A stretch of DNA of 49,911 nt from a virus: IMG/VR virus record IMGVR_UViG_3300022562_000956, positions 1-49,911 of that record; one strand, given 5' to 3'. Both the position numbers and the translations under genes were made by a program. Of the stretch, positions 4,843 to 23,738 are shown one piece after another (within the stretch, counting starts at the first letter, position 1; each line of letters begins with the position of its first letter). The notes under the pieces were generated by a model that was not told the origin of the DNA, did no database searches, and saw nothing but the letters and a program-made list of their open reading frames with translations.

Positions 4843-5100
4843 TCACCATCCATTCAGCCGCACGGTGCAGCTCTTGAGAGCGCCGCAGCACACCACGCCG
4901 CGAACGCGTGTGCCGAGCGGCGAGATACCAACGAACCCTTGGTTCCACCAGTCGTCGTCGGCGCACGCGAACATGTCGTACCCGGTCAGAGCCACCGGAT
5001 CGAAGCCATGCGCGCGCAGCACATGCTCGGCGCGCTCGTCGCTGAGCGTGCACGCCGTGATCATTGCCACTGCCATTGCAATCGCCATCATCGCCTTCAT
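4843..5100 (-). CDS. Small Cys-rich lipoprotein
   Basis: 85 residues with a signal peptide ending in a lipobox (A-M-I-T-A-C17). The mature part has G-Y-D-M-F-A-C, a W-W-N-Q-G-F segment and ends G-V-V-C-C-G-A-L-K-S-C-T-V-R-L. This G-x-V-C-C-G...K-x-C-T-V-R ending marks a family of small phage/bacterial exported proteins of unknown role. It is expected in the periplasm attached to a membrane, so it may alter the host envelope, for example in superinfection exclusion (inference). Confidence 0.6.
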   Translation of the reverse strand: MKAMMAIAMAVAMITACTLSDERAEHVLRAHGFDPVALTGYDMFACADDDWWNQGFVGISPLGTRVRGVVCCGALKSCTVRLNGW

Positions 5101-5530: not shown

Positions 5531-5727
5531 ACGCCCTCCGCTCGGCACATTCCAAACGCGACCACGCTGAACCCTGTAGCCACGAGTAGTGTGGCGCTTG
5601 CACAGCCGCAGAAGTCTGCGATCGCTAGCTCTCCTGCTCGTGCTGCTAGCGCCTGCGCTAGGCCGTGAGCATACGACAGCGAGCTCTGCGCGATGGCTGT
5701 GATCGCGAACTTCGTCGACAGCTTCAT
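5527..5727 (-). CDS. Small membrane-associated hypothetical protein
   Basis: 66 residues, starting MKLSTKFAITAIAQ, with a hydrophobic C-terminal stretch (SATLLVATGFSVVAFGM) that could span the membrane. Coupled on both sides by four-base overlaps. Part of a run of three small membrane genes (5527-6124). Confidence 0.5.
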   Translation of the reverse strand: MKLSTKFAITAIAQSSLSYAHGLAQALAARAGELAIADFCGCASATLLVATGFSVVAFGMCRAEGV

Positions 5728-5933
5728 TTTCCCACCATCGCCATCAACAGCGCGACGATGAAAAACACCGCCGCAAAAACCACGACGACAGTCGCACCTA
5801 GCCACAACGGAGACAGCACCCACCACCATGACCAGTCGATGTGACCCGTCAGCTTCAGACCGACGAACAGCACGGCGAGTGCGCCACCGATGCCGATGCC
5901 TCCGCCGCTAGAAACACTCTTCTCAGTCGCCAT
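5724..5933 (-). CDS. Transmembrane Fragile-X-F-type protein
   Basis: 69 residues with two membrane segments. Around the middle is L-K-L-T-G-H-I-D-W-S-W-W-W-V-L-S-P-L-W, the hallmark of the small phage membrane proteins annotated as transmembrane Fragile-X-F protein, followed by a long Val/Phe/Ala-rich second helix. The role is unknown; it may be a holin-like or host-membrane protein, but it lies outside the lysis cassette. Confidence 0.6.
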   Translation of the reverse strand: MATEKSVSSGGGIGIGGALAVLFVGLKLTGHIDWSWWWVLSPLWLGATVVVVFAAVFFIVALLMAMVGK

Positions 5934-6124
5934 CACGGCACCGCCTCCTGCGCAGCCGCAACGCACGCGGCCAACGGAATCTGTTGTTGCACGCACGCAG
6001 AGAACGCTGCGCTTCGACGCCTGAGGCGTTCCGAATCTGACCACGCACTCGCAGTAACGCCTGCAGATACCAGAACGAACAGGCTCACGAGCGCGATGGC
6101 CACTACCTTGTCTTCACTCTCCAT
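5933..6124 (-). CDS. Small membrane protein (63 aa)
   Basis: N-terminal hydrophobic segment (VVAIALVSLFVLVSAGVTA) followed by a short polar tail with two cysteines (FSACVQQQ, LAACVAAA). Probably anchored in the inner membrane with its tail outside. Its stop and the next ATG overlap (TGATG). No family recognised. Confidence 0.5.
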   Translation of the reverse strand: MESEDKVVAIALVSLFVLVSAGVTASAWSDSERLRRRSAAFSACVQQQIPLAACVAAAQEAVP

Positions 6125-6472
6125 TCACTCACCGCATTCCTTCTCCACACGCATATACACGCCCCTGCGTACACGCCGCAAGTTGCCTCGCTCGCACTCT
6201 CGTACGATTGCCTGGTGCACGGCCGTGTCGGCGTACTCGCGGAACACCAGCCTGGCCTGTGCGAATGACACCTGAGCGCCGACTGGGATGCCCATCAGCC
6301 ACTCGCGCACGGCCGAAGCGCTGTGTCCTGGACGCAGCGCTACGGCATCGCGCAACTCGCGGTTGAGCTTGGCACGATGCAACTGCAGCTCGCCTAGCTG
6401 TTCGCGCAGTTTGTCGATGCGCCGCTCGGTCGCCTCCATGTCAGCAGCGATCGCGGTTTTGGTGCGGGTCAT
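6125..6472 (-). CDS. Coiled-coil/winged-helix paralogue 1
   Basis: 115 residues. Residues ~5-45 form a charged coiled coil (ERRIDKLREQLGELQLHRAK); the C-terminal half has S-A-S-A-V-R-E-W-L, V-S-F-A-Q-A-R-L-V-F and ends E-R-G-N-L-R-R-V-R-R-G-V-Y-M-R, the strand-turn-strand ending of a winged helix. The same plan is seen in the next two genes upstream (6469-6792 and 6913-7266), making a tandem paralogous trio. Likely dimeric DNA-binding proteins; targets unknown. Confidence 0.6.
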   Translation of the reverse strand: MTRTKTAIAADMEATERRIDKLREQLGELQLHRAKLNRELRDAVALRPGHSASAVREWLMGIPVGAQVSFAQARLVFREYADTAVHQAIVRECERGNLRRVRRGVYMRVEKECGE

Positions 6473-6792
6473 GACACGCACCGCATGTACCGACCTCGAC
6501 TCACTCGCCTACATATGCCAGCGGAGATCGCTCTCTTGAATGCCTGGTCAATCGCAGACCTGCTGACACCAGGGAATCGTTCGCGAACATCGAAAACTAC
6601 CAACTCATCGCCAGGAGCGCTGCCAGCGATCCATTTTGACACCTCTCCATGGGAATGGATATTGACAGCCCTCATGAGTGCACACTTAGCGCGTATGCAC
6701 TGGTTGTCCGCTTCCTTTAGGCGCGACTTCAGTTTGTCCCTCAGTTCAATGGCTTGCTCAAGCTCTTTTGTCAGCGTTTGAAGGTCAGTCAT
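6469..6792 (-). CDS. Coiled-coil/winged-helix paralogue 2
   Basis: 107 residues from MTDLQTLTKELEQ. Coiled-coil N-terminus (ELRDKLKSRLKEADNQ), then S-K-W-I-A-G-S-A-P-G-D-E-L and V-F-D-V-R-E-R-F-P-G-V-S-R-S-A-I-D-Q-A-F, ending R-R-V-S-R-G-R-Y-M-R. The helix S-R-S-A-I-D-Q-A matches T-R-H-A-A-Q-E-S in paralogue 3 and T-A-V-H-Q-A in paralogue 1. The ATG overlaps the stop of the tiny gene upstream (ATGA). Confidence 0.6.
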   Translation of the reverse strand: MTDLQTLTKELEQAIELRDKLKSRLKEADNQCIRAKCALMRAVNIHSHGEVSKWIAGSAPGDELVVFDVRERFPGVSRSAIDQAFKRAISAGICRRVSRGRYMRCVS

Positions 6793-6905
6793 CCATCTCC
6801 TCCTGCCATCTCCGAGTACATTCGCGCCATCGCTCCAGTCCAGCGCTTCGTCGCGTCGCTCATCGTGTGCACCTCGCCGTCCAAAGCGAGTGCAGTCCAG
6901 CACAC
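6789..6905 (-). CDS. Tiny conserved-looking protein (38 aa)
   Basis: A short frame from GTG 6905, reading M-C-W-T-A-L-A-L-D-G-E-V-H-T-M-S-D-A-T-K-R-W and ending in a Met-rich helix. Its stop overlaps the ATG of paralogue 2. A shorter start (ATG 6863, 24 residues) is possible. The frame extends a few codons upstream toward the ATG at 6916, which is in another frame, so one lost base after 6916 could also explain the arrangement. Low certainty. Confidence 0.35.
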   Translation of the reverse strand: MCWTALALDGEVHTMSDATKRWTGAMARMYSEMAGGDG

Positions 6906-6912
6906 CGGATTG

Positions 6913-7266
6913 TCATTCCGCCGCCGCATTCCGCCTCCAGCGCGCATAGATTCCGCGGTCAACGCGCTCGATCAGTCCAAACTTACGCGCGTTTAGCAGC
7001 GATTCCTGAGCAGCATGACGAGTCATGCCTGGATGCGCTTTCATTACAGATGAAGCCGTGATCCGAGCGCCGTCGTCAAGAGATTCGATCCACATCGATA
7101 CCGCACCACGAGGTCTGCGATACACACCATCGTCCTGCAGCGCCCGCACTGCTTCCCGACGCAAGCGCAGCAGGCGCAGATCGATTGCCCGAACCTGCTC
7201 AAGCATGGTTGCTCGCTCCTCCTCGGCTCTCTTGATTTGCTCGGCAATGTCCATCAGCTGGTTCAC
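6913..7266 (-). CDS. Coiled-coil/winged-helix paralogue 3
   Basis: 117 residues, starting at GTG 7266 with GGAGGC just upstream and GTGA overlap with the preceding stop. Coiled coil at ~8-45, then G-A-V-S-M-W-I-E-S-L-D-D-G-A-R-I, V-M-K-A-H-P-G-M-T-R-H-A-A-Q-E-S-L and the wing-like end E-R-V-D-R-G-I-Y-A-R-W. Same architecture as its two downstream neighbours. Confidence 0.6.
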   Translation of the reverse strand: MNQLMDIAEQIKRAEEERATMLEQVRAIDLRLLRLRREAVRALQDDGVYRRPRGAVSMWIESLDDGARITASSVMKAHPGMTRHAAQESLLNARKFGLIERVDRGIYARWRRNAAAE

Positions 7267-10449: not shown

Positions 10450-10722
10450 TCATGCTGACCTCACTCGGCGCTGCCGAATGACAGCCTCCGCGCGCATCAC
10501 GAGCTCTGACACGCTGAGTCCGAACGCCTTGGCGAAACGCTCTGCCATGCGCAGAGAGCAGATTCCGGCATGACGCCGATACCCTCCGGAGAGCGCGCGG
10601 GCAACGTGCGTTGCGTGCATCCCTGTGCCGGCAGCTAGGTCGATGTTCGACCATTTTCGACGGCGCTGCTCATCGTAGATCACGTCAGCCAGTGCTGATT
10701 CAAGCTCTGTTCGTTCTCGCAT
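10450..10722 (-). CDS. XRE-like HTH regulator 2
   Basis: 90 residues from MRERTELESAL. The HTH is less canonical: W-S-N-I-D-L-A-A-G-T-G-M-H-A-T-H-V-A-R-A-L-S-G-G, then E-R-F-A-K-A-F-G-L-S-V-S-E-L-V-M-R-A. The last part closely matches regulator 1 (AFGMTASELVAKAE), so the two are related. Its start lies 23 bases inside the end of the transglycosylase gene. Confidence 0.75.
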   Translation of the reverse strand: MRERTELESALADVIYDEQRRRKWSNIDLAAGTGMHATHVARALSGGYRRHAGICSLRMAERFAKAFGLSVSELVMRAEAVIRQRRVRSA

Positions 10723-11167
10723 CACGCTCCATCTCCTCTCGCAATCTGTCACGCGTCCGCAGCACCGCAGGCGCACCGACACGCACGTAACATCGACCTG
10801 ACCTGTAGCCGCGAATCGCTCCAATATCAGACCTACACCTGCGCTGGTACCACGCCAGCGCCGCAGCTCCGGAGCGCGCTTGAGCTCGCACGCACTTGTA
10901 GTGCCTGCAGAAACCACGCGCAGCCCACAACGCAGGCAACACCTGCAGGATGCCGACGGCTCCGCGTCGCGACACAGCAGTCGGAGAGAATCGCGACTCG
11001 TGCCACGCTAGGCTCGTCAGCAGCAACGGCTCCGTGCCGTGCTCGTCGGCAGCGAACACCATCACGTGAGCCAGTTCGGATGCACCCGAGTGCGTGCGGA
11101 ACACGTCTGGGCACGTCGACGTGGTCGCGCACATGGCGATGATGGCGGCTGCTAATTTGGCAATCAC
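10700..11167 (-). CDS. Exported lytic transglycosylase (SLT-like)
   Basis: 155 residues from GTG 11167, which forms GTGA with the true stop of the SLOG gene. The N-terminus M-I-A-K-L-A-A-A-I-I-A-M-C-A is a signal peptide. The catalytic region reads L-T-S-L-A-W-H-E-S-R-F-S-P-T-A-V-S-R-R-G-A-V-G-I-L-Q-V, the SLT pattern with catalytic Glu in H-E-S-R-F and G-A-x-G-I-L-Q, followed by A-L-A-W-Y-Q-R-R-C and I-R-G-Y-R-S-G-R-C. It cleaves the MurNAc-GlcNAc bond of peptidoglycan in the periplasm. It lies far from the lysis cassette, so the role in lysis or envelope change is open. Confidence 0.7.
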   Translation of the reverse strand: MIAKLAAAIIAMCATTSTCPDVFRTHSGASELAHVMVFAADEHGTEPLLLTSLAWHESRFSPTAVSRRGAVGILQVLPALWAARGFCRHYKCVRAQARSGAAALAWYQRRCRSDIGAIRGYRSGRCYVRVGAPAVLRTRDRLREEMERDARTNRA

Positions 11168-11584
11168 GAGTGCCTCACAGTTGTGTTGCGCCAGCGTGGT
11201 CCGACGATGTGGACGCGCACGTGCAGTCCAAAGCGAGACGCGGTCTGGGATCGCGTGGAGTGTTCCGCGTGATAGACCATCCCAGATGGCCCACAGCTCC
11301 GTGGCCATCGCCTCTCCATTACCTGTGATCATGTTGGCATTGCGGATCGGTCCAGCTGCTTTCCCGTGAGCTGCCCAGTCTGCGGGCCATATCTCGACAG
11401 GATCATCCATCGTGGAGCGGATGTGCTCGGCAACAACTCGGTCGACCCCGCGCGCATCTCCGACCCGCCACATCTGATCGTGAGATAACCACGCATCGTC
11501 TTCGTTGTGCATGATCTCGAACGCCTCCAGCGCAATCTGTTCAGGAATCGTGCGAGTACCTGACACTACTACGATGCGGCTCAT
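11164..11584 (-). CDS. SLOG-family (DUF2493-like) protein, frameshifted
   Basis: Starts M-S-R-I-V-V-V-S-G-T-R-T-I at 11584. It has the Rossmann-like DUF2493/YspA pattern: V-V-S-G-T-R, V-G-D-A-R-G-V-D-R-V-V-A-E-H, P-A-D-W-A-A-H-G-K-A-A-G-P-I-R-N and W-D-G-L-S-R-G-T-L-H-A-I, as in nucleotide-derivative binding proteins. After H-A-I the frame is broken at a G run (11247-11249). Dropping one G restores Q-T-A-S-R-F-G-L-H-V-R-V-H-I-V, the normal family ending, with a stop at 11166-11164. Repaired length is 139 residues. As written the frame runs on into the transglycosylase, a false fusion. Confidence 0.7.
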
Positions 11585-11712
11585 TTGCTCACGCTCCCGA
11601 TCTTGACTGCTGCCCACAACACCGTTGCGATGACGACCGACGCCGCGATGAACGACGCGATGAAAACGTGCTCAGCGATTACTGTCAGCGCTGCTGATAC
11701 GACTCGGATCAT
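11581..11712 (-). CDS. Small single-pass membrane protein (43 aa)
   Basis: From ATG 11712 with a good GGAGGTGA upstream: M-I-R-V-V-S-A-A-L-T, then a hydrophobic helix (FIASFIAASVVIATVLWAAV) and the tail KIGSVSK. Its stop overlaps the SLOG start (ATGA). Codon use and ribosome site make it convincing despite its size. Role unknown. Confidence 0.6.
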   Translation of the reverse strand: MIRVVSAALTVIAEHVFIASFIAASVVIATVLWAAVKIGSVSK

Positions 11713-14970: not shown

Positions 14971-15262
14971 CCACTGCACTGAATGCCTGTGCCTACCTCC
15001 GGAAGGCGTACCAGCGCATAAGTGGCTAGGATACGATGCCGTGTGCCCAGACTGCCGGCAGATGCTGGATGACGAGGAAACGTTTGAGGAGCACGCGGCC
15101 GAAAACGTGTCCATCACCGAGTTCGGCATCGCAATCGGTCACTGCAGCTGCGTATACTGCCGTCGTCACCTGGCGCGACAGGCGCGACAGTGGGCGTGGG
15201 AGAAGTTGCACAAGGCGCGCGCTGCCGAGCCGGTTGACGAGAGCGAGGACATCACGTTTTGA
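14963..15262 (+). CDS. Cys-rich zinc-binding-like protein (99 aa)
   Basis: GTG start at 14963 overlapping the previous stop, with AGGGAGAG upstream. Three Cys clusters: H-C-T-E-C-L-C-L-P-P near the start, C-P-D-C-R-Q-M-L in the middle and G-H-C-S-C-V-Y-C-R-R-H later, consistent with two zinc sites. The C-terminus is Trp/Ala-rich (RQWAWEKLHKARAAE). Role unknown. Confidence 0.5.
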   Translation: MADHCTECLCLPPEGVPAHKWLGYDAVCPDCRQMLDDEETFEEHAAENVSITEFGIAIGHCSCVYCRRHLARQARQWAWEKLHKARAAEPVDESEDITF

Positions 15263-15282
15263 GCAAGCGGAGTGATGTGAAG

Positions 15283-16116
15283 ATGAGCAAGAAGAAGAAG
15301 ACAGTGCTGACGAAGCGCGCGCGTGACTTTTTGTCGCAAGGGCGGACTATTTATGACGGGTCGATCGCGTATGTGTTGCGTACGTGCGACGCGAACATGA
15401 CTGCTGCGCACCGCGGATTCGTATGGCCACGGTCGGGCGCAGTGACGTGCGATGATTGGGCTGCGACGCGCGAGTGCGGAAATGGATTGCACGGGTTCCT
15501 GTGGGGGACTGGTGATCACGCCTTGGCCTCATATGCACCAGGCGCGATCTGGGTCGTGTGCGCTGTGTGGTCGGACGATGTCGTCGACTTGGGCGGAAAG
15601 GTCAAGTTTCCGCGGGCGTGGGTCGTATTTGCGGGCCAGCGCGATGATGCGGTTGCATTACTCGTGTATCTTGGTGGGAAACCGGATTTTCGTGGCACCG
15701 CGACGGCTGGCGACGCTGGCACCGCGACGGCTGGCTACGCTGGCACCGCGACGGCTGGCGACGATGGCACCGCGACGGCTGGCGACGATGGCACCGCGAC
15801 GGCTGGCTACGCTGGCACCGCGACGGCTGGCTACGCTGGCACCGCGACGGCTGGCGACGATGGCACCGCGACGGCTGGCTACGCTGGCACCGCGACGGCT
15901 GGCGCACGTGGCACCGCGACGGCTGGCTACGCTGGCACCGCGACGGCTGGCTACGCTGGCACCGCGACGGCTGGCGCACGTGGCGTCATCTCTATCTGGG
16001 GATGGGACGGTAAGCGTCGCCGGATGGTCACTGGTTACGTCGGGGAAGACGGCATCAAGGCCAACGTTGCGTACCGCGTTGATCCGAAAACCGGGTGCCT
16101 GGTAGAGGCTAGATGA
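15283..16116 (+). CDS. DUF7666-like protein with twelve 8-residue G-T-A-T-A-G repeats
   Basis: 277 residues from ATG 15283 (TTG 15259 in frame overlaps the previous stop). N-terminal domain: Y-D-G-S-I-A-Y-V-L-R-T-C-D-A-N-M-T-A, W-P-R-S-G-A-V-T-C-D-D-W and C-G-N-G-L-H-G-F-L-W-G, as in DUF7666 proteins. Then twelve tandem copies of G-T-A-T-A-G-x-x, where x-x is DA, YA, DD or AR, likely a narrow beta-solenoid, and a beta C-terminus (GVISIWGWDGKRRRM). Such proteins occur in phages and plasmids with no known role. Confidence 0.65.
   Translation: MSKKKKTVLTKRARDFLSQGRTIYDGSIAYVLRTCDANMTAAHRGFVWPRSGAVTCDDWAATRECGNGLHGFLWGTGDHALASYAPGAIWVVCAVWSDDVVDLGGKVKFPRAWVVFAGQRDDAVALLVYLGGKPDFRGTATAGDAGTATAGYAGTATAGDDGTATAGDDGTATAGYAGTATAGYAGTATAGDDGTATAGYAGTATAGARGTATAGYAGTATAGYAGTATAGARGVISIWGWDGKRRRMVTGYVGEDGIKANVAYRVDPKTGCLVEAR
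15694..15981 (+). repeat. Twelve tandem 24-bp coding repeats
   Basis: Each unit is GGCACCGCGACGGCTGGC followed by six variable bases (GACGCT, TACGCT, GACGAT or GCACGT). The eighteen-base core is identical in all copies at nucleotide level, so the array is recently expanded or kept uniform by recombination. It lies inside the DUF7666-like gene and keeps the frame (period 24). Confidence 0.95.
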
Positions 16117-19009: not shown

Positions 19010-19275
19010 AACTCGCCGACATCGACCCGCATGCCGTCGCACTCGACGTCGCACGCCAGTCGCACGCTCACGTGGTCGACCTGACGTCGCGCCTGCTCTC
19101 GCCGATCTGCGATGGCCCGTGGCTGCCACGCGGGCAGCCTGAGGATGCCGCGCTGCGCTCGACGCAGATCTACCTGACCGTGCGCGACCTGGCCGCGTGC
19201 GTCCTAGCCGATCGCCGCGTCCCAGCGCCCTGCAACGTCGAGGCTCCCCGGTGCACTCAGGTGCAGGTGGTATGA
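19006..19275 (+). CDS. Hypothetical protein (89 aa)
   Basis: GTG start overlapping the previous stop: M-K-L-A-D-I-D-P-H-A-V-A-L-D-V-A-R. Helical, with two Cys near the end. The last 72 bases lie over the end of the opposing esterase gene (19204-20598), so the rightward and leftward operons meet tail to tail here. An alternative is that the true protein ends earlier through an indel, but the reading is clean. Confidence 0.45.
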   Translation: MKLADIDPHAVALDVARQSHAHVVDLTSRLLSPICDGPWLPRGQPEDAALRSTQIYLTVRDLAACVLADRRVPAPCNVEAPRCTQVQVV

Positions 19276-20598
19276 CTCGATCCATGGACCCTCAGGCGCA
19301 TCGACGAGCAGCGCTCCGAGCACCACGGCGAGTTGTGCCTGCTGCGTGCGCACGGACTCCCACGATGGGTATGGCCCGTCGGACGGCACGGTCGTCGGAA
19401 GGCGCGTGACGACGATCGGGGCTAAGCCGTAGCGCGCGACGTAGGCGCTGATGGTGGCTGTCCAATTGTCCGCGTACGCAGGCGAAGCGTCGACCGCGTC
19501 GTTGGCGCCGTCGTAGAGCACGTATCCAGCGAGTCGCGTTCCCGGCGTCCTGAGCGCTGCGTCGATGCGCAGTGTGTTGCTGTGCCAGTACGATCCGCCG
19601 TAGACCTGCTCGGACGAGCGGCGCCCGCCATGGCCACAGTTGAGCGCGGAGGTTTCGCGGCCTGTACGCTGCGCTCGCAACCAACCGAACAAGCCAGCGG
19701 GTCCAATACCTTTCAGGTCGCTGGAATATGCGCCTGCCACGTTGCACGGCTCCGAGAGCTCCGAGTACGCATCCCAGTAGCTCACCGGCGTGAACGCGCG
19801 CAGCATCCACAGCGACCCGTCAAGCGGTGGATATCCAGCAGGCGCTGTCGCCGGATCCGCGCGGCCCTCCATCTCCGAATCGCCAAGGCAAATCCAGACG
19901 TCGCGCGTCGCCGGAGCCACGTAGCGAGCGCGTGCGTACTGCCAAAGATGCGCGACCTGCGACGCGGTCAGCGCGCCGTCGAACACGTCAAGCTCGGCCA
20001 GCGCGATGGTGCTCGACTCGCCGATCATCATGCCAGTGCAGGCTCCCGACGTCACGCCACGGCCAGTACGCGTGCCCAGTGAGACGCCGTCGCGATAGAG
20101 CGTCCACGTGCCGCTGCCAACCGAGCCGTCGACGACCCACGTCCACCAGTGCGGCCACTGGCATAGCGCGTCGGTCCAGGGCTGGTCACCAGGAGGAGTC
20201 GGGCGCCAATAGTCCCCGCTCTCGTGCTCTGGCACTGCGGAGAGCTGCGCATAGAGCGTCTCGAAATCCAGGCGCAGCGCCACACCGCCCGTCTCAACGT
20301 AGCCCCACCACGCGAGCGTGAACGAGCCGGATAGACAGACGTCGGAGCTCGATGTCGTGAGCGACTGCGAGGTGACTACTACGAGCGGGTGTGAGCGCGC
20401 TCGATTGGTTCCGGCGAGCAGCGATGGAGCATCGACAGCGGACAGCGTCGCGCCTCCGATGCGCGCCGGCCATGTTCCGCGGGCGTAGTCCTCAGCGAGC
20501 CATTGCGCGCGCAACGCGAAGTCTGCAGGAGAAGGCAGGCGGGACATTGACGGTGATTGGCGCTGACCTCGACGTGCGGCGCCTGCGCGCCGATTCAC
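19204..20598 (-). CDS. LamG-like plus SGNH esterase tail protein
   Basis: 464 residues. Residues ~60-225 form a LamG/concanavalin-type beta sandwich ending I-A-L-A-E-L-D-V-F-D-G-A-L-T-A-S-Q-V. Residues ~232-464 form an SGNH hydrolase: G-D-S-E-M-E-G with nucleophile Ser241, G322 in C-G-H-G-G, G-A-N-D (364-367) and H444/H446 near the end. The close G-D/Q-S-x-M-E-G form suggests a carbohydrate O-acetylesterase that deacetylates surface polysaccharide during adsorption. GTG 20598 overlaps the previous stop; ATG 20547 is an alternative start. Confidence 0.7.
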   Translation of the reverse strand: MNRRAGAARRGQRQSPSMSRLPSPADFALRAQWLAEDYARGTWPARIGGATLSAVDAPSLLAGTNRARSHPLVVVTSQSLTTSSSDVCLSGSFTLAWWGYVETGGVALRLDFETLYAQLSAVPEHESGDYWRPTPPGDQPWTDALCQWPHWWTWVVDGSVGSGTWTLYRDGVSLGTRTGRGVTSGACTGMMIGESSTIALAELDVFDGALTASQVAHLWQYARARYVAPATRDVWICLGDSEMEGRADPATAPAGYPPLDGSLWMLRAFTPVSYWDAYSELSEPCNVAGAYSSDLKGIGPAGLFGWLRAQRTGRETSALNCGHGGRRSSEQVYGGSYWHSNTLRIDAALRTPGTRLAGYVLYDGANDAVDASPAYADNWTATISAYVARYGLAPIVVTRLPTTVPSDGPYPSWESVRTQQAQLAVVLGALLVDAPEGPWIESYHLHLSAPGSLDVAGRWDAAIG

Positions 20599-21359
20599 AG
20601 CGCCAGCGACCCCAGTGTTACATCGGCCTCTGAGCCGACTGTAAATGACATGTCGTCCGATCCAATCGAATCCGTGAGGCCAGCCGGGAACGATGCTCCA
20701 GTCACCTGCTCGCTGACGTCCCAGCGGTGAGCAGCACTCTGCGCGGTACCAAGCGGAGTTCGCCTGGTAGCGACGTATTGCGCGTACAGATCAGTGGCAT
20801 CAGCGGCATTGATGAATGTATCTGCTCCGACGAGCCCAGCCAAGTACGCTTCGCTACCCGATGTGCCAGTGTTTCTCGAATTGAACGCCATCGGAGAGTT
20901 GTTGGGCGCATAGGTTGCATCTGCAGTGCCCGAGCCTACTTCCACACCATTTACGCTCAAACGTACGGCGCTGCCGTCCCACCACCCTACGATAACCATG
21001 GGGGTATTTACAACCCCGACGGTTATTGTGTACGTCGGTGAGTAGGTCCCGGTGGCGTCGATGAAGAACGTCAAGCTAGCAGCGTTTTGCTCTATACCCC
21101 AACCGGTCGCCCCGCCGAAGCACCCGCTCAAATAGCCATACCCGGTTGGTATGGATGTCCACCACGCCAGCGCGCAGATCCACAGGCCTGTCGTACCGTC
21201 TCCCTGAACAGCAGGGAACGCCGTCATCAGCGACGCGCCTCCGCCAAATCCGGTGCCGCCATACAGGACTGTCGGAAGACCCGACTGGACGATCCCGCCC
21301 AGGCTGCTGCGCACGCCGCGTCGCTCACCGAGCGAACCCATCCTCCTATTGACTCGCAC
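20595..21359 (-). CDS. LamG-like receptor-binding/tail protein
   Basis: 254 residues, Gly/Ser/Thr-rich beta protein. It shows the LamG scheme: a concave sheet (GLWICALAWWTSI), I-G-W-W-D-G-S-A-V-R-L-S-V-N-G-V-E-V-G-S and E-A-Y-L-A-G-L-V-G-A-D-T-F-I-N-A, then a helix like that of the other LamG proteins in this block. GTG 21359 starts within the end of the lipoprotein gene. Placed between lysis genes and the esterase, it is probably a virion adhesion protein. Confidence 0.55.
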   Translation of the reverse strand: MRVNRRMGSLGERRGVRSSLGGIVQSGLPTVLYGGTGFGGGASLMTAFPAVQGDGTTGLWICALAWWTSIPTGYGYLSGCFGGATGWGIEQNAASLTFFIDATGTYSPTYTITVGVVNTPMVIVGWWDGSAVRLSVNGVEVGSGTADATYAPNNSPMAFNSRNTGTSGSEAYLAGLVGADTFINAADATDLYAQYVATRRTPLGTAQSAAHRWDVSEQVTGASFPAGLTDSIGSDDMSFTVGSEADVTLGSLAL

Positions 21360-21792
21360 GATAAGCCTCCCTTGCGTGTCCTTGCGCTGTTCCTGGCTGA
21401 TACCACACCCTGGCGTCGTCGTGAGCCACGTTTGACCGGCTACCGTCCCATACGCTGCGCGAGCGCCCGATAGTGCAGGAGTACAGCGCGTGCATCAGCT
21501 CGTGGATAGCTGGGTCGCCGCCGCCGTCGATCGGCTCGCCTGGACGCAGAAGCGGTCCGCGCCACGTCAGGCACGATGCCGCTCGCTCGACCGTCACTCC
21601 GCACACGTCACGAAATGCCTGCGCGCTCGTCGCCCAGCGCACGCGCATGTCAGCTAGGCATCGACCAGGCGCTGGCAGTCCGGCTTCTGACCATCCTCGT
21701 TCGGCTGCATCGATGAGTCGCGCATCCAGGTCGCTCGGAGGCACTTCAGAGCGACATCCGGCGAGAAGCGCGATCACGGCCAACGCTCTCAC
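21346..21792 (-). CDS. Lipoprotein with HExxH metalloprotease-like motif
   Basis: 148 residues from GTG 21792, which overlaps the amidase stop (GTGA). Signal peptide and lipobox: A-L-A-V-I-A-L-L-A-G-C13. The mature part carries D-P-A-I-H-E-L-M-H-A-L, an HExxH zinc motif (His97, Glu98, His101), with a possible third ligand in V-A-H-D-D (His124). Cysteines are paired around it. Position in the lysis cassette suggests an outer-membrane spanin-like or envelope-attacking role, but a superinfection-exclusion lipoprotein is also possible. The catalytic motif is seen; activity is inferred. Confidence 0.65.
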   Translation of the reverse strand: MRALAVIALLAGCRSEVPPSDLDARLIDAAERGWSEAGLPAPGRCLADMRVRWATSAQAFRDVCGVTVERAASCLTWRGPLLRPGEPIDGGGDPAIHELMHALYSCTIGRSRSVWDGSRSNVAHDDARVWYQPGTAQGHAREAYRASQ

Positions 21793-22370
21793 GGTCCATC
21801 CTCGCAAGGCGTCACGGTCGACCGCGACGGGCAAATCGCAGCCAGCCATTGCGGCCCTGGGTCGCGCTTATTCGACGCAACGTGGAAGTGCCCGATGTGT
21901 CCGCGAACCGTCTCGAGCGTGGGTCGTGAGAGCGTGCGCTCGGACGGGTGCGCATGCTCGGGAAGACCGAACGCTGCCGATAGCGTGCGCATCAGCGCCT
22001 TGCCTGCTGCCAGCTGCGGCTCAGTCCACCACTCGCCATCACCGCCCAGGCCGCAGACCTCGACACCGACAGACCATGGATTCGCGCTCAACACCGCGTG
22101 TTTCCCGCCGGCATGCGCGGTCATTCGGTCCGCGTCGCAGCATTGGTAAACGACGCCGTCGCGGCCAATGATGAAGTTGACAGATAGTCCACGCAGGTGA
22201 AGCGTCTCAATGACGCGCGCGTGGTCTCCTTGCCCGCCGGTCCAGTGCCAAACTACCGCCCTGGTCTCGGTGCGCTGCTGACGAGCTGGGAACACGGATA
22301 GGTCGACGACGGCTTGCGCTTCGCAGTGCACAGGCATGCCGCGAACCACGATGCTCACTTGCCACCCCAC
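21789..22370 (-). CDS. N-acetylmuramoyl-L-alanine amidase (endolysin)
   Basis: 193 residues of the Amidase_2/T7-lysozyme family, cutting the bond between MurNAc and the stem peptide. Zinc ligands are visible: His42 in V-V-W-H-W-T-G-G and the cluster G-H-I-G-H-F-H-V (158-164), followed by K-R-D-P-G-P, the usual Lys/Asp-Pro-Gly-Pro end. Middle motifs V-N-F-I-I-G-R-D-G-V-V-Y-Q and N-P-W-S-V-G-V-E-V-C also fit. No signal peptide, so it should need the small membrane proteins next door as holin. Confidence 0.9.
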   Translation of the reverse strand: MGWQVSIVVRGMPVHCEAQAVVDLSVFPARQQRTETRAVVWHWTGGQGDHARVIETLHLRGLSVNFIIGRDGVVYQCCDADRMTAHAGGKHAVLSANPWSVGVEVCGLGGDGEWWTEPQLAAGKALMRTLSAAFGLPEHAHPSERTLSRPTLETVRGHIGHFHVASNKRDPGPQWLAAICPSRSTVTPCEDGP

Positions 22371-22738
22371 TGGGCGACAGCGCTGGCAATACCGATGACC
22401 GTCGCGGCAAGAGCGATTACGCCAGATACCACCTTCGCAGTGAACTTGGCGATCCGAGCACGCTCCTCGCGGCGCATCTCGCGCCCCTTAAGCACAAGCA
22501 CTGTTGCGCCCAATTTCTCCATGCGCTCTCGGTCCTCGTGCCGATGGCGAGCAAGCATTTCCTGGTCGTCTTCTCGGTGTTCGACGAGCTCGCGCGTGCG
22601 CTCTTCAATGCGCGCCACGCTCTCACGCACGCCGGAGATCTCGTGGTACACAGCGCCCTGGAAATCAGCCTGTGCTCGAGCGACGTCGCGCATAGCCTCC
22701 TGGAGGCCGTCAAGGCTGCGGCGAAGATCGTCGTCCAT
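22355..22738 (-). CDS. Coiled-coil protein with C-terminal membrane anchor
   Basis: 127 residues from M-D-D-D-L-R-R-S-L. A long charged coiled coil (about 5-95) leads into a single hydrophobic segment (VVSGVIALAATVIGIASAVA). This is the layout of several phage holins/lysis accessory proteins with a cytoplasmic stalk. ATG 22738 overlaps the previous stop (TGATG). Between the spanin-like gene and the amidase, so a holin is likely. Confidence 0.55.
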   Translation of the reverse strand: MDDDLRRSLDGLQEAMRDVARAQADFQGAVYHEISGVRESVARIEERTRELVEHREDDQEMLARHRHEDRERMEKLGATVLVLKGREMRREERARIAKFTAKVVSGVIALAATVIGIASAVAQWGGK

Positions 22739-23526
22739 CACCGCACCGCCCATGCAATGGTCACGGTCATAGTAGCCAGGAAGCCTGCTATGAACATCAC
22801 CGCCGGTCTGCGCCACCAGCGTGATAGCCTGGCATTCTCCCTGGTCTCAGCCGCCAGTACGCGCTGCGACGCAGCCAATCCAGCCTGGCACACCGACTCG
22901 GCCGCTAGCGCGCTATCCAGCCCTCGCTCGCTGGCGTCTGCCTCGGCGCGGAGCTCGCGCAACATCTTGCGCGCAGCCTCGAGCTCGACCAGGAACTGCG
23001 TGTCCTCGGCGTGCTCGGCGTCGCTCATCCACCAGCCACCAGGCAGCCTATCGTGCGTATCGCGATGCATGGCTGACGTTACCGGCTCAGCCGCACTCAC
23101 TGGTGTTGCAGCGCCGATAGCCGCAATGAGCACGACAAGCCCACCAAGCCTGCCACCCCGCCGTAACCGCTCCGCTGCCTCTCTGCGAATACGCTCGCGC
23201 TCGTCTGGGTCGGCATGGTCGACAGCGGCGGCACTCTGCTCGGATTGCGCTGCGATCGCTTCGGAACGTGCTCGTGACTGCGTGGCCGCTTTGCGCGCCG
23301 ATAGCGCCGCCTCTCGCTGCTGGCGTGCAGCCTCTCGCACGACGGAGTCTGCGCGCAACTGCTCCGCAATCTCGGCGTCAGTCTGCCTCCGGCTGCCAAG
23401 ACGCAAGCGACCCAGACTCGCCACCGCCACGAGCAGGCCAAACGCCGACAATGCGACGGCCCACCACCAACGCCACGACGTGACGCGATACCAGACACCC
23501 GAGATTGTTTGACCGATCGTGAGCAT
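22738..23526 (-). CDS. Multi-pass coiled-coil membrane protein, lysis region
   Basis: 262 residues from M-L-T-I-G-Q-T-I. Three hydrophobic segments: W-W-W-A-V-A-L-S-A-F-G-L-L-V-A-V near the start, G-G-L-V-V-L-I-A-A-I-G-A-A in the middle and V-M-F-I-A-G-F-L-A-T-M-T-V-T near the end, separated by long Arg/Glu/Ala-rich coiled coils. Possibly an unusual inner-membrane spanin or two fused lysis proteins, since the middle segment plus A-A-T-P-V-S-A-A resembles a signal peptide. Longer upstream readings are shadows. Confidence 0.5.
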   Translation of the reverse strand: MLTIGQTISGVWYRVTSWRWWWAVALSAFGLLVAVASLGRLRLGSRRQTDAEIAEQLRADSVVREAARQQREAALSARKAATQSRARSEAIAAQSEQSAAAVDHADPDERERIRREAAERLRRGGRLGGLVVLIAAIGAATPVSAAEPVTSAMHRDTHDRLPGGWWMSDAEHAEDTQFLVELEAARKMLRELRAEADASERGLDSALAAESVCQAGLAASQRVLAAETRENARLSRWWRRPAVMFIAGFLATMTVTIAWAVR

Positions 23527-23558
23527 ACTGCACCGCCCTCGCGCGCCATGGATTGACC

Positions 23559-23738
23559 TCAGTACCGAGCCTTTGCGCCTCCCAAAAACTTGCCGAGTGG
23601 ATGCGTGATCCGCTGCAGCCATGGCCACCGCTCGTCGAGCGCATCGCATACTGCCAGAACGAATCGGCCAACTGCCCACAGCCCACCCACTGCGGCAGCT
23701 GCCATGTTCGCGAAATCGGTCACATCGTCAGCGCTCAT
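23559..23738 (-). CDS. Small membrane protein, holin-like candidate (59 aa)
   Basis: Starts M-S-A-D-D-V-T-D-F-A-N-M at 23738. One hydrophobic stretch (AAAAVGGLWAVGRFVLAVCDAL) and a short basic/aromatic tail. First gene of the lysis group; a candidate holin or pinholin. In-frame ATG 23774 would overlap the upstream gene and is less likely. Confidence 0.5.
   Translation of the reverse strand: MSADDVTDFANMAAAAVGGLWAVGRFVLAVCDALDERWPWLQRITHPLGKFLGGAKARY

Follow-up and report, generated by a model that had tools for sequence, protein, structure and literature searches.

A phage family of HExxH lipoproteins with a predicted mini-zincin layout, one member of which overlaps an endolysin gene

Introduction

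Llp of T5 and Cor of the phi80-type phages are superinfection-exclusion lipoproteins, a class that blocks the receptor or the entry of DNA. Lipoproteins are also known from lysis, where the two-component spanins are represented by lambda RzRz1 and Mu gp23/23.1 (PMC9239132). In these spanins an outer-membrane lipoprotein subunit is encoded next to the endolysin gene, a trait that the lipoprotein analysed here appears to share. HExxH peptidases that act on the outer membrane, as is proposed below for the phage family, include the outer-membrane/periplasmic M48 enzymes LoiP and BepA of E. coli, and LoiP is itself a lipoprotein. The role of BepA at the outer membrane has been described (PMC8423444, PMC7950410). 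In Listeria, the phage-derived secreted metzincin Mtz has a lipoprotein partner, Tim, and raises sensitivity to phage lysin (PMC8235301), and mini-zincins or minigluzincins such as abylysin, selecase and the Acel_2062 family have also been described (PMC3890501).

Here we analyse a lipoprotein with an HExxH motif that is encoded directly behind an endolysin gene in an IMG/VR virus record of 49,911 bases, hereafter the window, together with its relatives in other phages. Text searches for phage HExxH lipoproteins in lysis, covering few subscription papers, brought up no account of these proteins, which we regard as a phage family not described before, although the type of enzyme is known.

Results

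The gene (21346-21792, minus strand) has a GTG start codon at 21790-21792 and encodes a protein of 148 aa. The start codon lies in a GTGA at 21789-21792 (minus strand) that is shared with the TGA of the preceding Amidase_2 gene (21789-22370, minus strand), which encodes an N-acetylmuramoyl-L-alanine amidase of 193 aa, the endolysin (Pfam E=7e-21; PHROG endolysin E=9e-15). The N-terminus, MRALAVIALLAGC (21754-21792, minus strand), is a short putative type II signal peptide with the lipobox LLAG-C13 and Arg, not Asp, at position +2. Coordinate arithmetic places the HExxH codons (H97-E98-L99-M100-H101) at 21490-21504 and, together with the alignment, the codon of H124, the candidate third zinc ligand, at 21421-21423, both on the minus strand. 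From the motif on, the protein reads HELMHALYSCT..., and the residues of note are the lipid Cys13, Cys45, Cys64, Cys74 and Cys106, the HExxH at 97-101, H124 and W130. The lipobox, the HELMH, the candidate third ligand and the overlap with the amidase stop are thus all present in the window sequence, as the initial annotation had described. An antisense ORF of 232 aa overlaps the gene.

The late gene run of the window comprises, in order, a structural gene (1154 aa), a LamG-like gene, a small transmembrane protein, two coiled-coil transmembrane proteins, the amidase, the HExxH lipoprotein, a LamG-like protein and a LamG-SASA esterase, with which the run ends. The coiled-coil protein next to the amidase (22355-22816, minus strand) has a C-terminal transmembrane helix and is holin- or spanin-like by topology only. 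The coiled-coil protein before it (22738-23679, minus strand; true start probably near 23530) has several hydrophobic segments: one transmembrane segment at each terminus and, between them, a signal-like stretch (GGLVVLIAAIGAATPVSA); it may be an unusual spanin or holin, or represent two fused genes. Downstream of the lipoprotein lie the LamG-like (concanavalin-type), tail-fibre-like neighbour (20595-21359, minus strand), whose PF13385 match is below the cut-off (E=0.001), and the LamG protein with a SASA/GDSL esterase domain (19204-20598, minus strand; PF03629, E=1.5e-9).

Within the 18-26 kb module no lipobox protein other than the HExxH lipoprotein was found, and a lipobox scan, by which an unusual spanin might be missed, turned up no canonical o-spanin in the rest of the late module. 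The HExxH lipoprotein is therefore the main lipoprotein candidate if the phage needs an outer-membrane lysis protein, a function that a non-lipoprotein disruptin may serve instead. A scan for promoters and terminators gave nothing informative.

Outside the late run, a second lipobox ORF of the window (4843-5100, minus strand) encodes 85 aa beginning MKAMMAIAMAVAMITACTLSDERAEHVLRAHGFDPVALTGYDMFACADDD..., a product which we take to resemble small lipoproteins known from other phages. At 10700-11617 (minus strand) the N-terminal part of the product matches PHROG 289, 'GTP-binding domain', and the C-terminal half is lytic-transglycosylase-like; the ORF may represent two genes, of which the second has a possible signal peptide of its own at 11167. 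The protein encoded at 15259-16116 (plus strand) has tandem repeats of the GTATAGYA/GTATAGDD type.

Degenerate-pattern scans identified 14 relatives in unrelated IMG/VR phage contigs, yielding a family of 15 with the window protein. The first DNA pattern, HExxH-x4-C-...-H-x4-[V/I/M]-W, returned 11 IMG/VR loci, eight of them lipoprotein ORFs of the same build and three chance matches (L006, L010, L012). A CATGAR variant added one member (L014); a pattern of the upstream Cys residues and HExxH-C, in which H124 and W130 were not demanded, gave L002, L003, L007, L011 and the new L030; and a pattern without the Trp added L034, L036, L038 and L039. All five members from the pattern that left H124 and W130 free keep both the His and the Trp. 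An over-strict pattern, demanding HxD and a hydrophobic residue, gave no loci. Besides the three chance matches, L013, L027-L029, L031-L033, L037 and L041 were set aside as chance matches or implausible genes, L035 as a different HExxH protein, and L040 as a short frame with a doubtful start. The closest relative, L009 in contig G007, is 35% identical over 130 aa by BLASTP (E=2e-16) and 41% in the alignment. Exact peptide words from the window protein alone found nothing in the viral and genome sets because the family is too divergent; with the closest three members they re-found G007 and nothing else.

Searches with the window protein up to E=1 matched neither a Pfam nor a PHROG family, tblastn found nothing in 50,697 phage records, and among PDB sequences there was a single match, at E=0.23. 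When three relatives were compared with phages, and one with plasmids, tblastn again gave no match. Family members had no significant match to Pfam, PHROG, NCBIfam or PADLOC models, the weak Pfam matches of single members being mostly to HExxH families. A pattern satisfied by 11 of the 15 members had one chance match in 84,980 bacterial and archaeal species genomes; by this pattern no true member occurs there, so the family appears to be restricted to phages. At least one carrier, G006, is temperate (Pfam Phage_integrase) and another, G007, probably so (integrase by eye), and despite such carriers no prophage copy was found in the genome collection. The integrase genes are those of L022 (6436-7647, plus strand) and L023 (18448-19731, minus strand).

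The family signature consists of a lipobox, at least four further Cys and HExxH-x4-C-...-(D/N)xxH-...-W. In alignment A2 (n=15) the lipid Cys, Cys74, H97, E98, H101, C106, H124 and W130 are invariant, and Cys45 and D121 nearly so. The 100% conservation of HExxH, C106, H124 and W130 is partly by construction, since most search patterns demanded these residues and every pattern demanded E98. No pattern asked for the lipobox, and just one of them demanded the upstream Cys. A lipobox-like N-terminal Cys, preceded by an n-region and a hydrophobic region and located near residue 10-20, is present in 15/15 members, and none of the 15 has Asp at +2, with the lipid Cys as assigned. At least four Cys follow the lipid Cys in every member, exactly four in ten, which is enough for two disulfides. 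Judged from these alignments, the signature is real and not a product of chance, as 14 further phage loci share the lipobox, the Cys pattern and HExxH...H...W. The window copy is a slightly divergent member, with N121 where almost all others have Asp and a shorter stretch just before HExxH.

AlphaFold2 was run with A2 as the input alignment, and the fold prediction that the initial annotation had called for gives a minimal zincin layout with HExxH in a helix. The HExxH helix is preceded by two or three strands, and the His stands just before a short helix. The model of the window protein (pLDDT 76.8, pTM 0.68) has HExxH in helix 94-107, a low-confidence loop before H124 (residues 111-115, pLDDT<50) and H124 ahead of a short helix, 127-130. 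This loop, N121 and the shortened stretch before the motif suggest that the window copy could be inactive, a possible loss of activity that these features would allow. L005, a more typical member, is predicted with higher values (pLDDT 82.2, pTM 0.76; 90-93 in the site region) in the order helix-helix-strand-helix-strand-strand-HExxH helix-(His)-short helix, its H113-H117 lying within helix 104-124. A motif in a helix devoid of a third ligand, which had been held to speak against a metalloprotease, is not what is seen at the sequence level, where a candidate third His is present.

In Foldseek searches against the PDB, the six best matches of the window model were all HExxH peptidases (abylysin, Zmp1, a lethal-toxin entry and ZMPSTE24 three times; E 0.55-3.3). 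The top 30 matches of L005 included selecase, snake-venom metalloproteases, leishmanolysin, MMP-3 and karilysin (E 0.18-1.7), interspersed with BcsB and others. The matches of both models are enriched in zincins, yet all have E>0.1 and prob<=0.51; as no single fold match is significant, the evidence is one of enrichment for one enzyme class. Foldseek against a viral library gave no significant match. Among PDB sequences the family profile matched astacins best, at E about 1, aligned over GC...HELxHA. These models and the zincin-enriched fold and profile matches make a lipid-anchored mini-zincin fairly well supported as a fold-level reading.

Like the mini-zincins, the family has about 100-130 aa, an HExxH helix and a very small C-terminal subdomain, and abylysin and selecase are among the top Foldseek matches of its models, with fold and sequence scores that are not significant. 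It differs from them in its lipid anchor, its richness in Cys and its candidate third ligand, a His some 13-23 residues after HExxH and not Glu or Asp. Membership in named peptidase families was not borne out for metzincins, SprT-like peptidases or M48. The likeness to astacin-like metzincins is the profile alignment over GC....HELxHA at E about 1, and HExxHxxGxxH is missing from 15/15 members; there is no Met-turn either. The arrangement HELxHxL...H...W/F is shared, by eye, with SprT-like peptidases; there was no Pfam match to SprT (PF10263) above the cut-off (best E=0.11, in 1/14 members), and hhalign of the family against E. coli YggI, which we take to be SprT, aligned 25 columns with a probability of 11%. 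Unlike the family, YggI has neither signal peptide nor lipobox. Neither the window protein nor its relatives have a Pfam M48 match, and in contrast to the family LoiP and BepA are bacterial, larger and have Glu as third ligand. The Mtz/Tim system differs in being Gram-positive, in a protease that is not itself a lipoprotein, and in its metzincin motif.

The window protein shares one spanin trait, that of a lipobox lipoprotein next to a lysin. Whereas o-spanins are short and Pro-rich, it has 148 aa, is Cys-rich and carries HExxH in a fairly confidently predicted fold. It is not among the C-terminal-TM proteins of the module, and the build of an o-spanin or unimolecular spanin was accordingly rejected. 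The likeness to the superinfection-exclusion lipoproteins Llp, Cor and Ltp consists of the lipobox and the tail-fibre neighbourhood.

The arrangement with a lysin is not conserved as a lysis cassette, although in six of ten contigs examined the lipoprotein and a lysin are no more than about 5 kb apart. G007 is most like the window: fibre-like genes, transmembrane proteins, the amidase, a coiled-coil transmembrane protein, a small gene and the HExxH lipoprotein follow one another until the run ends, with the amidase <1 kb before the lipoprotein. A 4-base overlap of the lipoprotein start with the preceding co-directional gene occurs in the window, G007, G008 and G009. The G009 phage is distantly related to that of the window (TerL 36%, 1154-aa protein 29%), and in G009 the lipoprotein follows tail genes and precedes TerL, while a different lysin, an M15 peptidase, is encoded 2 kb on, past TerL and a transmembrane protein. 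In G008 the gene is among tail genes, adjoining a transmembrane/coil protein, with the amidase 5 kb away. Three copies are antisense and lie within or next to tail genes: in G004 the 3' end faces a short tail-fibre gene (E=7e-21) and the amidase is 2.4 kb away, and in G005 and L038 the gene is within the tail module or closes it. The G002 copy is on the opposite strand and has an M15 lysin 2.6 kb away; those of G001, G006 and L030 are in accessory or early regions; and that of G003 is at the contig edge, 11 kb from the amidase. Near the L030 lipoprotein an HExxx protein (ISHEVLEVLADP) and another lipobox protein were observed (5594-6244, plus strand; 6560-7105, minus strand), and in L039 a second lipoprotein lies directly upstream.

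Discussion

We give about an even chance to the window protein being a late, lipid-anchored mini-zincin, coupled to endolysin translation, that cuts one or a few host envelope proteins as infection ends. Such a protein would be exported by Sec and lipidated at Cys13, and would be retained in the outer membrane, lacking Asp at +2, provided that the host obeys the Lol +2 rule. Two disulfides among Cys45, Cys64, Cys74 and Cys106 would stabilise the small alpha/beta domain, in which one Zn would be bound by H97, H101 and H124 with E98 as the general base. Translational coupling would ensure that it is made together with the endolysin. The target across the family would be a surface or outer-membrane protein, either the phage receptor or an envelope-tethering protein, and its cutting would free progeny from debris or make the outer layer yield. 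Speaking against a mini-zincin are the absence of a significant match to any known peptidase family and the distance of several members from lysis and tail genes. That a lipoprotein carries HExxH does not by itself establish a zincin: the later structure of pallilysin reportedly argued against this fold. Pallilysin is an HExxH lipoprotein that had been studied through HAXXH mutants and ICP-MS (PMC3406077).

The narrower forms of this mini-zincin reading differ in the target. A protease dedicated to lysis, replacing or assisting a spanin by cutting tethers between outer membrane and peptidoglycan after amidase action, agrees with the GTGA coupling in the window, the amidase pairing repeated in G007, the lysins near the gene in most of the contigs examined and a late module in which the lipobox scan, open to missing an unusual spanin, revealed no canonical o-spanin. 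The window and G007, taken alone, lean towards it. However, the position between tail genes and TerL in G009, with its different lysin, the antisense copies of G004, G005 and L038 and the early or accessory ones of G001 and G006 make such a dedicated role rather unlikely. It is the main idea of the initial annotation, a metalloprotease-like lipoprotein that would break the outer envelope in place of a spanin, with the processing of receptors as its alternative. Its first part is strengthened by the family-wide third His, the zincin-like predicted fold and the status of sole lipobox protein in the late module; its second part finds partial support and is weakened by a family without a fixed tie to lysis genes, and we regard an endolysin-coupled outer-membrane zinc protease that replaces the spanin by cutting the proteins that hold the outer membrane as improbable. 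Destruction of the phage's own receptor, and thereby superinfection exclusion in the manner of Llp or Cor but by proteolysis, is a tentative possibility. The tail-fibre neighbourhood agrees with receptor processing no less well than with lysis: tail-fibre or LamG genes recur nearby (window, G004, G008, G009), the antisense placement in G004, G005 and L038 is moron-like, and lipoproteins are a known superinfection-exclusion class (PMC3952083). Yet Llp and Cor need no HExxH, the accessory-region members are not beside fibres, and no receptor is known for these phages. Taken together, the contexts lean slightly towards receptor destruction or superinfection exclusion over an aid to lysis.

It is unlikely, though conceivable, that the lipoprotein is non-enzymatic, with HExxH as a relic or structural metal site in a binding protein or a spanin-like outer-membrane anchor. 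The want of a significant match to an active peptidase family and the N121 of the window copy would fit such a protein, whereas H124 is kept in 15/15 members, five of them found with that residue left free, E98 is kept as well, albeit demanded by every pattern, and a folded domain of 130 aa is unlike the short, Pro-rich o-spanins. A chance motif or misread ORF, for which the overlapping antisense frame and the lack of a database family could be cited, is scarcely credible and was rejected: independent homologues, with L009 the closest at E=2e-16, retain the lipobox, the Cys and the spacing.

In other phages the gene is found beside tail fibres, antisense in tail modules or in an accessory region. 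What the family members have in common is therefore more likely to be the cutting of a host envelope protein late in infection, be it a receptor or a barrier to lysis. If active, these proteins would be a phage lipid-anchored protease directed against the host envelope, and would serve either to pass the outer membrane by proteolysis or to destroy receptors.
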